Origin: an uncultured Marivita sp.
Lineage (GTDB): Bacteria > Pseudomonadota > Alphaproteobacteria > Rhodobacterales > Rhodobacteraceae
NCBI RefSeq assembly: GCF_947488135.1
Contig: NZ_CANKYW010000001.1
Location: forward strand, 1,178,001-1,242,000
Length of the DNA stretch: 64,000 bases
Reading direction: 5' to 3'
Below the pieces are notes generated by a model. That model was not told where the DNA came from and ran no database searches. It was given only the letters and a program-made list of their open reading frames with translations. The first letter of the stretch is position 1. Each line of letters starts with the position of its first letter. This document shows positions 4,041-31,223 of this stretch, in pieces. A program made the translations under genes and the position numbers.

Positions 4041-4076
4041 TTGCCTTTGCCGGGTGCGGAACATAATGTGAACATT
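4041..4076 (+). promoter_or_regulatory. LexA box and overlapping promoter of the radical SAM-udgX operon
   Basis: GAAC-ATAATGT-GAAC at 4059-4073 is a perfect alphaproteobacterial SOS box (GAAC-N7-GAAC, complement of GTTC-N7-GTTC). It ends 3 bases before the ATG at 4077. CATAAT (4062-4067) inside it could be the -10, with CTTGCC/TTGCCT at 4040-4046 as a weak -35 at 15-16 bp. This would start transcription at or next to the ATG, and there is no ribosome site, so the mRNA may be leaderless. Separately, 4061-4080 is a perfect 9-bp inverted repeat with a 2-base centre. The box is seen; regulation by LexA is inferred. Confidence 0.8.
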
Positions 4077-5309
4077 ATGTCCAAGCTCACTCTGCAACAG
4101 AAGCTCGCCATCCTGTCGGACGCGGCAAAATACGACGCCTCCTGCGCTTCGAGCGGGGGGCAGAAGCGCGACTCGAAAGACGGGAAAGGCATTGGATCGA
4201 CCACCGGGTCGGGCATCTGCCACGCCTATGCGCCGGACGGGCGCTGCATCAGTCTCCTCAAGATCCTGATGACCAATTTCTGCATTTACGATTGCGCCTA
4301 TTGCGTGAACCGCGTGAGTTCGAACGTCGAGCGGGCGCGCTTCACCCCCGAAGAGGTGGTGGAGCTGACGCTGGAATTCTATCGCCGCAACTATATCGAG
4401 GGGCTGTTCCTGTCGTCGGGCATCATCCGGTCGCCGGATGACACGATGGCCGACATGGTGCGGATCGTGAAAAGCCTGCGGGAAGAGCACGGGTTTCGCG
4501 GCTACATCCATCTCAAGACCATTCCCGACGCCTCTCCGCACCTGATCGAGGAGGCGGGCAAGTTCGCGGATCGACTGTCGATCAACATCGAATTGCCGAC
4601 CGACAGTGCCGTCAAAACCTACGCGCCCGAAAAAGACCCGAACCAGATTCGACGCGCGATGGCCGATGTGCGAGTGCTCAAGGAGGCGCGGCGCGAAAAG
4701 ACCTATCGCGGACGCAGCGCGCCGCGTTTTGCACCGGCAGGCCAATCGACCCAGATGATCGTGGGCGCGGACGGCGCCAACGATGCGACGATCCTGCGGA
4801 CGTCGACACGGCTCTATTCGGGATATCGGTTGAAGCGGGTGTACTACTCGGCCTTTTCACCGATCCCGGATGCCTCGGCCACGCTGCCGCTGATCCAGCC
4901 GCCGCTGATGCGCGAGCATCGCCTGTACCAGGCCGACTGGCTGATGCGGTTCTACGGCTTCGATGCGGGGGAAATCACCGCCGCGCAGCCTGACGGCAAC
5001 CTCGATCTCGACCTCGATCCCAAACTGGCCTGGGCGCTCGAAAATCGCGCGCTGTTCCCGGTGGACGTGAACCGGGCCGACCGCGAGATGTTGCTCCGCG
5101 TGCCCGGCTTCGGCACCCGCACTGTCGGCCGTATCCTCGCCACACGGCGGCACCGGTCGGTCCGATGGGAGGATCTCACGCGGATGGGCGCAAACCTGAA
5201 ATCGGCACGCTCCTTCATCAGCCTGCCGGGGTGGCAGGCGCGGGGGCTGGACACGGCCGATCTGCGCGCGCGCTTTGCACCCCCGCCCGAGCAGCTCGCC
5301 CTGTTCTGA
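4077..5309 (+). CDS. Putative DNA modification/repair radical SAM protein (UDG-linked family)
   Basis: 410 residues. The 4Fe-4S motif is CxxxCxxC at Cys69, Cys73, Cys76 (FCIYDCAYC). A helix-hairpin-helix lies near residue 340 (RVPGFGTRTVGRIL), a DNA-binding feature. This family (TIGR03916-type, 'rSAM linked to UDG') is usually next to a UdgX gene, as here 8 bp downstream. Function is unproven; a radical-based repair or modification of DNA is the common guess. The ATG at 4077 is chosen because MSKLTLQQKL matches the family start; an in-frame TTG at 4041 would put the LexA box inside the coding region. Confidence 0.88.
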   Translation: MSKLTLQQKLAILSDAAKYDASCASSGGQKRDSKDGKGIGSTTGSGICHAYAPDGRCISLLKILMTNFCIYDCAYCVNRVSSNVERARFTPEEVVELTLEFYRRNYIEGLFLSSGIIRSPDDTMADMVRIVKSLREEHGFRGYIHLKTIPDASPHLIEEAGKFADRLSINIELPTDSAVKTYAPEKDPNQIRRAMADVRVLKEARREKTYRGRSAPRFAPAGQSTQMIVGADGANDATILRTSTRLYSGYRLKRVYYSAFSPIPDASATLPLIQPPLMREHRLYQADWLMRFYGFDAGEITAAQPDGNLDLDLDPKLAWALENRALFPVDVNRADREMLLRVPGFGTRTVGRILATRRHRSVRWEDLTRMGANLKSARSFISLPGWQARGLDTADLRARFAPPPEQLALF

Positions 5310-5317
5310 GCCGCGTA

Positions 5318-6766
5318 ATGTACCGCATCACCTTGCCCGAAATCGGCACCTTCGACGCCTGGCGCGATGCCGCGCGGCGGGCGCTTGCGGCGAAGGTCCG
5401 ACCGGAGGACATCCTTTGGCAACGCGGCGCAGGGGCCGCGGACCTCTTCGGCACGGAGGCGACCGAATTCCCCGATGTCGCGTCACCGGACCGCGTCACG
5501 GTGCCGAAAAGCTTTCTGTCCACTGTCCGGCTGGCGCTGTGGCACCGCGATCCGGAACGTTTTGCGCGCGCCTACGCGATGCTGTGGGCGCTGCAATCGG
5601 CGCCGCGCCTTTTCGAAGATCGCGGCGACCCTCGTGTCTCAAAGCTCAACGCGCTCGCCAAGGAGGTTGGGCGCGACAAGCACAAGATGACGGCGTTCGT
5701 GCGCTTTCGCGATACCGGAGACCGCGACGCGCCGCGCCGCCGCTTTGCCGCCTGGTTCGAGCCGTCGCATTTCATCGTGGAGCCAACGGCGCCTTTCTTC
5801 GTGAAACGATTTGGCGACATGGATTGGACAATCCACACGCCGGACCTCACGGCGGTGTTCGAAAACGGGGTGCTGCGCTTCGCGCCGGGGATTGAGAAAC
5901 CGCCGTTGCCAGAGGATGCCACCGAGGAACTCTGGGGCACGTATTTCCGCAACATCTTCAATCCAGCGCGCGTCAAGTTGAAAGCGATGCAGGCGGAGAT
6001 GCCGAAGAAATACTGGAAGAACATGCCCGAAACCGCGCATCTGCCGGAAATGATTGCAGGCGCGCGCGCCCGTGCCGCCGAAATGCAAGCCGCGGCTCCG
6101 ACTTTGCCGCCCTTGCGCGCGTCCAGAGTCACCGCGCGCTTGTCGGAGGATCGCCGCGGTCCCGGCGAGGTTCATGGCGAAGACAGGTTGGCCGACGCGC
6201 TTGACGCCTGTCGGCGCTGCCCGCTCTGGCAGGATGCGACACAGCCCGTGCCGGGCGAGGGGCCGGTCGACGCGTCGCTGATGTTCGTGGGCGAACAACC
6301 CGGCGACCGCGAGGACCTTGAAGGGCGTCCCTTCGTCGGCCCCGCTGGCGCGGTACTGGATCGCGCGCTCGACCAGGCGGGGATTGACCGTGCGACGGTC
6401 TATCTCACGAACGCGGTCAAGCACTTCAAATTCGTGCCGCGCGGCAAGCGGCGGGTGCACCAGACGCCAAGCGCGGACGAGATCGACCATTGCCGCTGGT
6501 GGCTGGATCTCGAACGGGAACGGGTGCGCCCGGCCTTGATCGTGGCACTCGGTGCCACGGCTCTGCGCGGCCTGACGGGCAGCGGGACGGGTCTGCTCAA
6601 GCGGCGCGGCCGGATCGAGATGTCGGGCGATCAGCCCGTCTTCGTCACGATTCACCCCAGCTACCTGCTGCGCCTGCGCGACTCCGATCAGCGTCTGCGC
6701 GAGGAAGCGGCCTTTCACGCCGATCTGAGACGCGCGGCCGACCATGCCGCACATCTTGCCGCTTGA
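5318..6766 (+). CDS. UdgX-family uracil-DNA binding/glycosylase protein with N-terminal TIGR03915-like domain
   Basis: 482 residues in two parts. Residues ~1-250 resemble the domain often fused or linked to UdgX (TIGR03915/DUF4130-like). Residues ~290-480 are a family-4-like uracil glycosylase fold with GEQPGD near residue 325 and IHPSYLLRL near the end. The UdgX hallmark is the insertion Lys377-Arg-Arg-Val-His381. In characterised UdgX the equivalent His forms a covalent link to the abasic sugar after uracil removal. The ATG at 5318 is 8 bp after the radical SAM stop and has no clear ribosome site, so translational coupling is likely. The LexA box upstream of the pair implies damage induction. 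Confidence 0.9.
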   Translation: MYRITLPEIGTFDAWRDAARRALAAKVRPEDILWQRGAGAADLFGTEATEFPDVASPDRVTVPKSFLSTVRLALWHRDPERFARAYAMLWALQSAPRLFEDRGDPRVSKLNALAKEVGRDKHKMTAFVRFRDTGDRDAPRRRFAAWFEPSHFIVEPTAPFFVKRFGDMDWTIHTPDLTAVFENGVLRFAPGIEKPPLPEDATEELWGTYFRNIFNPARVKLKAMQAEMPKKYWKNMPETAHLPEMIAGARARAAEMQAAAPTLPPLRASRVTARLSEDRRGPGEVHGEDRLADALDACRRCPLWQDATQPVPGEGPVDASLMFVGEQPGDREDLEGRPFVGPAGAVLDRALDQAGIDRATVYLTNAVKHFKFVPRGKRRVHQTPSADEIDHCRWWLDLERERVRPALIVALGATALRGLTGSGTGLLKRRGRIEMSGDQPVFVTIHPSYLLRLRDSDQRLREEAAFHADLRRAADHAAHLAA

Positions 6767-28438: not shown

Positions 28439-30469
28439 ATGGCGCGGATCTGGTCTGTCATCCCCGACATGCTTCTCGCACAGCGCGGTGGCCTGTTTCC
28501 CTTTGTGCCGGTCTTCCTTGGCGTCGGCATCGCCCTCTATTTCGCGCTGCGGATCGAACCGCCGGTCTGGGCGCTCATCCTGTCAGCCGCCCTCGGCGGT
28601 TTGGCGCTGATCTGGCACCTGCGCAGCCGTTCCGCATGCGCGCCGGTGATCTGCGCCGTCGCGATGGTGGCCCTCGGGCTCGCGCTGGCAGGAACGCGGG
28701 CGCATCTGGTGGCGGGCCCGGTGCTCGACTGGCGCTATTACGGCCCGGTGACGGGCAGGGTGGTTGCTCTCGACCGCTCGGCCTCCGACGCGCTGCGCAT
28801 CACGCTCGACCGCGTCTGGCTGAGCGAGGTGCCACTTTCCGAAACACCCACCCGCGTGCGCCTGTCGCTGCATGTCAAAGGCGAAATTCTGACGCCGGAA
28901 CCAGGACAGACGATCATGACCACCGCCCATCTCGGCCCTCCCGGCGGCGCCGTCGAACCCGGAGGCTTCGATTTCCGCCGCCACGCCTGGTTCCTGCGCC
29001 TGGGCGCAGTCGGCTATACCCGCGTGCCGCTTGTCCTGTGGGAAGAGGCGGGCCGCGACCGGTTCATCTTCCAGACCCGCATGGCGATCTCGGCCCGTGT
29101 GCAGGCCGCGCTGCCCGGCGATACCGGCGCATTCGCCACCGCCATCATCACGGGCGACCGCAGCCCCATCCCCCAGCCGATATTGCAAGCCTTGCGGGAC
29201 ACCAACCTCGCGCATCTGCTGGCGATCTCGGGCCTGCATATGGGGTTGGTCAGCGCCTTTGTGTTCGCAACCCTGCGCCTTGGGCTGTTGCTGACCCCCA
29301 TTGGCCTGCGTTGGCCGATCAAGAAGATCGCGGCCGGTGGCGCGCTGGTCGTCGCGGCCATCTACCTTGCGCTGTCGGGCGGCAATGTCGCCACCGAACG
29401 CGCCTTCGTCATGGTCGCGGTGATGCTGCTCGCCGTCATGGTGGACCGCCGCGCAATCTCTCTGCGCGCGGTGGCACTGGCCGCGCTCATCGTGCTGGTT
29501 CTGCGACCCGAGGCGCTGATGGGGCCCGGCTTCCAGATGTCCTTCGCCGCGACCACGGCGCTTGTCGCGATCTTCAGCGCCATCCGCGACAGCTCCCATG
29601 ACCTGCCGCGCCACCGCCTCCTGCGCGGGGTGGCGTCGGTCGTCCTGTCCTCCGCCATCGCCGGGGCCGCGACCGCCCCCTTCGCCATGGCGCATTTCAA
29701 CCAGATCGCGCAGTTCGGCCTCATCGCGAATCTTCTGACCGTGCCGCTGATGGGCCTTCTGGTCATCCCGGCGGCGGTTCTTAGCATCCTGCTTATGCCT
29801 TTCGGCCTCGAAACCATTGGGCTGTCGCTGATGGGCTTTGGCCTCGACTGGATTCTCGCCGTCGCGCAGTCGATGGCAGGTTGGAGCGGCGCGGTGCGTC
29901 CGGTAATGACGCCAGCCCCGCCGGTCCTGCCCCTGATCACGTTGGGAGGTCTTTTCATCGTCCTGTGGCAAGAACGCCTGCGCTGGCTTGGGCTCGCCCC
30001 CGTCGCCTTGGCCGCACTTCTCTGGGCCAAGGCAGAGCGCCCACCGATCCTTGTCGCCGAAGGCGGCGCATTGGTCGGGGTGATGACCGATCAGGGCCGC
30101 GCCTTGTCCCGCGCGAAAGGGTCAGGCTTCATCGCCGAGGTGTGGTTGGAAAATGACGGGCAGGGGCTCGACCAACCCGCGGCAGCGGCACTTTGGGCAG
30201 GCTCCGACACCACGGTCCGTCACATCCACGGCAAACGCAACGCCGCCAGCTATGAGGGATGCACCGACGGTGCGCTGGTGATCGCCAGCGCGAACTTGCC
30301 CGCCCGGGCCAACGCACCCTCCTGCAGGGTGCTGGACGCGGCGGCCCTGACCGATCTTGGCAGCCTTTCCGTGACCCGGAAGGACGACGGGACGTGGCAC
30401 ATAGAAAAGGCGCGCGACCGATCCGGCGCGCGCCTCTGGAATGATAAAGCCGTGCGAAACGCTCAGTAG
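28439..30469 (+). CDS. comEC: ComEC/Rec2-family DNA-uptake channel protein
   Basis: 676 residues, polytopic. An N-terminal DUF4131/OB-like part (~90-190) precedes the competence domain with [21 protein letters not shown] (the family signature) around residue 260, then about ten helices. It would form the inner-membrane channel for single-stranded DNA uptake. The C-terminal beta-lactamase-like domain is short or degenerate: no HxHxDH motif is visible in the last 150 residues. It converges on lexA and overlaps its stop by 7 bp. Confidence 0.9.
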
Positions 30470-31161
30470 GTGCGGATCAACCCGACCAACCGGCCCTGCA
30501 CCTTGACCGCACCGACCGGCAGGATACGCGACTCATGCGCCGGGTTCGCCGCTTCGAGGATGATGCTTTCGCCCTTGCGCTTGTAGCGCTTCAGCGTTGC
30601 CTCGTACCCTTCGATCTGTGCCACGACGATATCACCATTATCTGCGACCGAGGTTTCCCGGATCACCACGATGTCACCATCGTTGATGCCTGCTTCGATC
30701 ATGGAGTCGCCTTTGACCTCCAGCGCGTAGTGATTCCCCGCGCCCGAAAGCATCGCGCCCGGGATCGTCACCTTGGGCGGGAGATCGTTGATTTCCTGGA
30801 TCGGAACACCCGCCGCGATCCGACCCATCAGGTCCACGCCGACCGCATCCGTCGCCTCGACCTCGACCGCATTGGCGGGCGGCGGGACATCCGGCAGATC
30901 CCCGTCGATCACCTGCGGTGTGAACCCAGGCCGCTTGGCCGCGAGCGTATCGGGAAGCTTCACAATCTCGATCGCGCGCGCCCGGTGGGCAAGGCGGCGA
31001 ATGAAACCACGTTCTTCGAGCGCGGTGATCAGGCGGTGAATGCCCGATTTGGAGCGCAAATCCAGCGCCTCTTTCATTTCGTCAAAGCTTGGCGGGACAC
31101 CGTCGCGCGCCACGCGTTTGCTGATGAAGTTCAGCAGGTCGAGTTGTTTTTTGGTCAGCAT
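30463..31161 (-). CDS. lexA: SOS repressor LexA
   Basis: 232 residues. The N-terminal winged helix (~1-65: [24 protein letters not shown]) binds SOS boxes. The self-cleavage site is Ala117-Gly118 in GRIAAGVP; the catalytic pair is Ser153 (GDSMIEAG) and Lys191 (EATLKR). The long linker is typical of alphaproteobacteria. GGAGG ribosome site. A LexA box 34 bp upstream overlaps its own promoter. It is separated from moeA by 86 bp and can be transcribed independently. Confidence 0.97.
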
Positions 31162-31194: not shown

Positions 31195-31223
31195 GTTCTA
31201 CTGTTGTTCCTGTTTTGTGTCAA
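31195..31223 (-). promoter_or_regulatory. lexA promoter with autoregulatory LexA box
   Basis: GTTC-TACTGTT-GTTC at 31195-31209 is a perfect SOS box. On the minus strand TTGACA (31223-31218) is a consensus -35, the spacer is 17 bp, and TAGAAC (31200-31195) is the -10, inside the box. LexA binding would block this promoter. lexA autoregulation is established in the family; binding here is inferred from the match. Confidence 0.85.

Follow-up and report, generated by a model that had tools for sequence, protein, structure and literature searches.

The spore photoproduct lyase SplB belongs to the radical S-adenosylmethionine (SAM) superfamily and acts in DNA repair, and, to our knowledge, a role in DNA repair has been established for few members of that superfamily. 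The operon described here lies in a 64,000-nucleotide (nt) stretch of the genome of an uncultured Marivita sp. (Rhodobacteraceae; contig NZ_CANKYW010000001.1, positions 1,178,001 to 1,242,000; hereafter the window) and couples a radical SAM gene of family TIGR03916, which we take to be the same as COG4277, to a gene for a DUF4130-UdgX fusion protein. The closest described arrangement is the 'putative DNA modification/repair' operon of families TIGR03916, TIGR03915 and TIGR03914, with the same families, gene order and fusion, and we saw no structural difference from it; the same three family names are annotated in public plasmids, for example those of Phaeobacter. The system to which the operon belongs is known but has received little study, and SOS control of what is presumably this operon has already been published.

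In the Bacteroidetes, SOS regulation of a COG1573-COG4277 operon has been predicted, and the relevant passages of PMC8565304 label this operon a putative base excision repair system and report, by citation, an SOS-regulated system based on uracil-DNA glycosylase (UDG) in Verrucomicrobia and Alphaproteobacteria (the latter in Caulobacter). The Bacteroidetes operon resembles the present one in having a UDG and a second gene under the SOS regulator of its lineage but differs in box type, and neither DUF4130 nor the C-terminal motif described below occurs in the available text of that paper. LexA control has also been proposed, in the part of PMC3828012 that treats it, for CAC3343-CAC3344 of Clostridium acetobutylicum (a radical SAM protein of this name and an unknown protein), a pair that differs in belonging to a Firmicute and in being predicted from footprinting analysis and expression data. 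DUF4130 is associated with SplB-like radical SAM proteins and UDGs in the corresponding section of PMC3765255; a gene of this radical SAM name was upregulated in Acinetobacter on drying, as far as the excerpt of PMC13130816 goes, and another is merely listed for a Sphingomonas genome in the accessible portion of PMC9611098. UdgX forms a covalent adduct, and its precise physiological role is described as largely unknown in the passages at hand of PMC10359453. Our literature search found no paper in which UdgX was combined with a radical SAM protein, and the words SOS and operon were absent from the UdgX papers searched for them.

Locus layout

The radical SAM open reading frame (ORF) runs from the ATG at 4077 to 5309 (+) and encodes 410 amino acids (aa), with a TIGR03916 score of 582 bits against a cut-off of 343.5 and a match to Pfam Radical_SAM. 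The second ORF (5318-6766, +; 482 aa) begins 8 nt after it, so that TIGR03916 is paired with TIGR03915 as in the described family, and scores over cut-off for both TIGR03915 (206.9 bits) and TIGR03914 (307.7 bits). An earlier note on this DNA, prepared from the sequence alone, had described a LexA box 3 nt before the ATG and an 8-nt gap between the genes, together with a KRRVH motif from Lys377 to His381 of the second protein; the sequence and ORFs agree with this layout, and the motif is present at residues 377-381. The note began its span at 4041, which is a mere alternative TTG start, because the family profile and the orthologues begin at ATG 4077, and TTG 4041 was rejected as the radical SAM start. 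The fusion that it reported is real, and the 'third unknown part' to which it referred is a known family, DUF4130/TIGR03915, of unknown function.

LexA boxes, LexA types and promoter anatomy

A LexA box of the GAAC-N7-GAAC type (GAACATAATGTGAAC) occupies positions 4059-4073 (+) and ends 3 nt before the ATG at 4077. As a bare string this pattern is not above chance, with five perfect copies in the window where 2.03 would be expected (a count reached in 7 of 100 shuffles) and 146 sites genome-wide against 131 for the reversed control pattern, whereas its placement and conservation are far above chance. After de-duplication, 142 of 146 distinct alphaproteobacterial orthologues carried the box near the start (-150 to +20), the four box-less loci being L032, L041, L139 and L148 (L and G numbers are our own handles for loci and genomes); left out of this set were the non-alphaproteobacterial loci L067, L090-L109 and L198, loci that repeated an earlier one over their first 200 residues, and the split gene L035/L036. 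Across 149 genomes of the family, the box lay within 250 nt upstream in 25 of 27 TIGR03916 loci, the misses being L032, with one base changed, and L035, where the gene is broken across two frames, and single-base shuffles of the same upstream stretches gave on average 0.2 loci with a box. Further loci of the class had the box in 20 of 21 cases (L041 being the miss), and further alphaproteobacterial loci, searched over 120 nt, in all 22. Among 80 named loci, 75 had it within -80 to +20 of the start, with 102 matches in the entire 795 kb of those loci; the misses were L139 and L148 (each with one base changed), L182, L191 and L198 (Acidovorax).

The view that the box is a chance match and that the genes lie outside SOS control could draw on the pattern being scarcely commoner in the genome than its reverse, but it is opposed by the position and conservation of the box in orthologues and by the different LexA box type found in other lineages; we consider it scarcely credible, and the ortholog survey rejects it as far as sequence can do so. 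The perfect box on which the earlier note relied is thus present, although a perfect match alone is not above chance, and the absence from orthologous loci that would have spoken against LexA control was not what the survey found.

In other classes of Pseudomonadota, the E. coli-type box CTGT-N8-ACAG was perfect in 14 of 20 loci and the variant CTGT-N8-CCAG was present in three more, leaving L093, L095 and L107 without a CTGT-type box; the Caballeronia plasmid copy also had a perfect CTGT-N8-ACAG. Where the lexA promoter itself was read, lexA and radical SAM promoters shared their box type in six of eight genomes, with CTGT-N8-ACAG before lexA in G500, G740 and G704 and GAAC-N7-GAAC in G399, G075 and G054; four of these six genomes have an exact box before the radical SAM gene, whose box in G740 and G054 deviates by one base. 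Two box-less loci, L041 and L067/L093 (one locus), sit in genomes G345 and G545, which seem to be without full-length LexA because the LexA profile matched in its C-terminal part only, while a very divergent LexA could have escaped the search.

The window also contains lexA itself (30463-31161, -; 232 aa; TIGR00498 over cut-off), about 25 kb from the cassette, preceded by the LexA box GAACAACAGTAGAAC (31195-31209, -) 33 nt before its ATG. The same box type precedes recA and pdeM of this genome (each, like lexA, over its family cut-off), dnaE2-like and uvrD/pcrA-like ORFs (fragments with strong but partial matches), and a further ORF that is ImuB-like by eye and matches no NCBIfam family. These genes come from 20 boxes, this operon's included, that were picked by eye among those listed of the 146, mostly for A+T-rich spacers, and family searches covered the ORFs behind seven of them. 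The LexA control claimed in the earlier note is accordingly well grounded in sequence comparison, with boxes in the orthologues, a box type that depends on lineage and the same box at SOS genes of this genome, and we regard LexA/SOS regulation as close to certain on these comparisons. As a separate observation, the perfect LexA-type box of pdeM (TIGR04123, ligase-associated damage-response endonuclease; L206, G000:C3 near 62954) contains the presumed ATG.

Among the 142 boxed loci, 90 have a forward box that stops 1-6 nt short of the start codon; within the family this applies to 21 of the 26 loci with an unsplit gene. In 63 of the 90 loci with such an abutting box a TTG occurs 16-18 nt upstream of the box, and box positions 6-7 are TA in 75 of them; Shine-Dalgarno-like 4-mers were found in 7 of these 90 loci against 9 of 33 with a far box (gap of more than 8 nt). 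Position-wise base counts were taken in 23 family loci. Given the TTG spacing, the TA within the box and the paucity of Shine-Dalgarno-like 4-mers, we infer a -10 element within the LexA box and an mRNA whose 5' end coincides with the ATG or is adjacent to it. In the window, the predicted elements are a -35 TTGCCT at 4041-4046 (+) and, after a spacer of 17 nt, a -10 TAATGT at 4064-4069 (+) inside the box, with a predicted transcription start at or next to the ATG. This box-on-(-10) layout and the dispensability of UdgX beside a constant DUF4130 (see below) were not found in print, no search having been aimed at either. A variant arrangement was noted in the alphaproteobacterial family f165 (L081, L082, L085, L086 and L088; tail QLGFGF), where the box GTTCATGATATGTTC stands 93-97 nt upstream and most of the five loci have a second, GAATC-N5-GATTC-like element directly before the start codon.

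Clamp-like tail, cysteines and constant partner

The last residues of the radical SAM protein encoded in the window are PPPEQLALF, and the QLALF (5292-5306, +), in which Q406 is invariant in a 58-sequence alignment, has the form of a motif that binds the beta clamp. A QL[S/D]LF-type consensus, in penta- and hexapeptide forms, mediates beta-clamp binding by DNA polymerases, MutS and Hda, and QLALF agrees with the QLxLF or QLxLxL/F tail expected of such proteins. A clamp-binding-like tail was present in 166 of 166 distinct complete orthologues, all from Pseudomonadota, with the Q 5-11 residues from the end: 148 read Q[LM]xL[FLIW], 11 were hexapeptides (e.g. QLSLAF, QLGFGF) and seven fitted a relaxed form (e.g. 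QGSLF, QASLF). Among the ORFs of the named loci, a similar pattern near the end was seen in 30 of the 31 recognised as radical SAM and in one of the 429 others, the background pattern and those behind the 166 partly differing. A separate count with another pattern, not de-duplicated, gave 87 of 89, the remaining two having QGSLF at the end; neither this count nor the 166 includes L059, which a contig end truncates. Beyond these sets, the protein terminates in QLSLF in Spirosoma and in QLSLGF in Acinetobacter, and in Acetoanaerobium QLSIF lies 20 residues from the end. It is likely that QLALF docks on the beta clamp. The motif was not found in print in one aimed search (radical SAM, sliding clamp, DNA repair) judged by titles and abstract starts. 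Both the clamp-like C-terminal motif and the published SOS control of such an operon are missing from the earlier note.

The AlphaFold2 model of the radical SAM protein (predicted local distance difference test, pLDDT, 86; predicted template-modelling score, pTM, 0.85) can be aligned over some 240 columns with radical SAM barrels, among them those of HydE, biotin synthase and viperin. Six cysteines are invariant in the 58 orthologues, namely C69-C73-C76 of the CxxxCxxC motif (4281-4304, +) and the upstream C23, C48 and C57 (window positions 4143-4247); the latter three may form a second metal site, residues 23-49 being of low confidence in the model. A helix-hairpin-helix (HHH)-like region at residues 329-358 (5061-5150, +) is weakly matched by Pfam HHH_3 (E 0.0032, short of the cut-off) and, in a profile comparison, by a ComEA-related chain (E 0.01).

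In the second protein, the DUF4130/TIGR03915 domain (5345-6034, +) is supported by profile matches and by invariant residues that include H122, R129, R164, R218 and E238, and the UdgX domain (6041-6733, +) by TIGR03914, phmmer and Foldseek; the fusion model has a pLDDT of 90.9 and a pTM of 0.61. The UdgX domain resembles M. smegmatis UdgX in the domain itself, in the KRRxH loop and in GEQPG (at residue 325), with a phmmer E-value of 6.2e-48 against a solved UdgX chain and a Foldseek TMt of 0.88 at 47% identity; it differs in that the solved chains are UdgX alone, whereas here UdgX shares a polypeptide with DUF4130 and its gene adjoins one for a radical SAM protein. The uracil-pocket motif of UdgX is retained. 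In an R-loop alignment of 136 UdgX-bearing ORFs (the window included, not de-duplicated), the cross-linking-type His, His381 of KRRVH (6446-6460, +), is conserved in 135 and the Arg379 position in all 136, and UdgX chemistry looks intact where UdgX is present.

One and the same set of 27 genomes, out of 149 in the family, contains radical SAM, DUF4130 and UdgX, in line with the joint role that the earlier note had proposed for the gene pair; over cut-off, the counts were 26 plus the split gene of G147 for radical SAM, 27 for DUF4130 and 27 for UdgX. G117 had a further weak TIGR03915 match below cut-off and no radical SAM gene, and 145 of the 149 genomes had some UdgX-profile match above or below cut-off, as expected of other UDGs. 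The split gene is an observation of its own: in G147:C212 (L035, L036; a 73%-complete genome) the radical SAM gene is divided between two frames, with DUF4130 and UdgX adjoining over cut-off.

Beyond the family, at 28 distinct loci the DUF4130 ORF next to the radical SAM gene was short and lacked the UdgX motif, a partial UdgX-like match still standing beside DUF4130 in three of them (L039, L073, L140). Their boxes were perfect in 21 cases and numbered 25 with the CTGT-N8-CCAG variant included, L041, L067 and L148 having none, and 14 of 15 searched genomes with such loci had no UdgX over cut-off anywhere. On these grounds the sequence comparison makes radical SAM and DUF4130 the core and UdgX a detachable, added module. 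UdgX as an obligate partner, the role in which the earlier note had cast it, was rejected, the core being kept without it under SOS-type boxes at 25 of the 28 loci.

Proposed mechanism and alternative explanations

The best overall explanation, which we hold to be probable on the evidence of sequence and models, is a LexA-repressed (SOS) two-gene DNA repair operon with a clamp-docked radical SAM protein, DUF4130 and an optional UdgX; a DNA repair role of the operon is likely. DNA damage would activate RecA and lead to cleavage of LexA, whereupon the operon would be transcribed as a leaderless or near-leaderless mRNA. The radical SAM protein would be anchored to the replication machinery by its QLALF tail, bound to the beta clamp, and to DNA by the HHH-like region; with DUF4130 as partner, it could use a 5'-deoxyadenosyl radical to act on a nucleotide, damaged or wrong, that stalled or error-prone replication has left behind. 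In some lineages only, the fused UdgX would add recognition and covalent capture of uracil or of an abasic site. The scheme of the earlier note, in which one enzyme traps a lesion and the other performs radical chemistry, is possible. More tentatively, and with somewhat less than even expectation, the operon may represent a class of replication-coupled radical SAM repair with a QLxLF clamp tether, an obligate DUF4130, a possible second iron-sulphur site and an exchangeable UdgX that marks the lesion covalently. The question thereby shifts from radical SAM and UdgX to the role of radical SAM and DUF4130, and to why UdgX sometimes joins them; the clamp-binding-like tail, the constant DUF4130 partner and the natural versions with and without UdgX are testable handles.

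Several observations weigh against this explanation. Genomes G562 and G755 have a full LexA and the lexA box TTAGTAGTAATACTACTAA, and TTAGTAGTAATACTACTAA is absent before their radical SAM genes (L095, L107), so SOS control is not universal. A motif shared between the lexA and radical SAM promoters of these Xanthomonadaceae-like genomes, a label that is a guess from the lexA box, was sought and none was found; their two radical SAM promoters share a palindrome around TCTCATCCAATGAGA, possibly the site of another regulator or an RNA hairpin. No SOS-type box was found with a fixed set of patterns in the Spirosoma, Acetoanaerobium, Acinetobacter and Gemmatirosa records, and the divergent Gemmatirosa copy lacks the tail motif. 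The clamp interpretation depends on the likeness to the consensus QL[S/D]LF, seven of the 166 tails fit the relaxed pattern only, and the tail is of low confidence in the model (pLDDT below 50 for residues 407-410). The nearest folds are HydE and biotin synthase; the likeness to SplB lies in PMC3765255, whose relevant section names the DUF4130-linked partner SplB-like, whereas spore photoproduct lyase is absent from the best 50 listed folds and from the listed sequence and profile matches, and was rejected as the nearest relative. For DUF4130, the profile search found no solved relative (best E 0.48), and the Shine-Dalgarno contrast is modest and lends weak support to a leaderless mRNA.

A uracil base-excision system, in which UdgX acts on uracil or on misinserted nucleotides from SOS polymerases and the radical SAM protein is ancillary, would be near the published reading (a putative base excision repair system in the passage concerned of PMC8565304) and would suit the intact R-loop His in 135 of 136 ORFs, but the 28 UdgX-less loci, 25 of them boxed exactly or with one base off, and the lack of any UdgX over cut-off in 14 of 15 such genomes make it unlikely. 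The radical SAM protein and DUF4130 might instead resolve or recycle the covalent UdgX-DNA cross-link: the genes are coupled, and UdgX makes a covalent adduct (PMC10359453, in the text available), which something must therefore resolve. Genomes that have no UdgX over cut-off nevertheless keep the core, with SOS-type boxes, and the matched solved UdgX chains, of about 205-230 aa, have no DUF4130 (they could be trimmed constructs); we judge this explanation distinctly less likely than a base-excision system.

The sporadic distribution of the genes could also mean that they are no housekeeping repair system but an accessory cassette of mobile DNA with a DNA-modifying or defence-like role, since the radical SAM gene occurs in three of 13 genomes of the genus, its own included, and in 27 of 149 of the family, and the radical SAM protein is matched by 158 records of a plasmid collection (58 of them Phaeobacter) and by 10 of a phage collection. 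Such a cassette is very improbable in view of the SOS-type boxes across many families and the tie of DUF4130 to repair genes in the section cited of PMC3765255, and 142 of the 158 plasmid records are predicted to be non-mobilizable.

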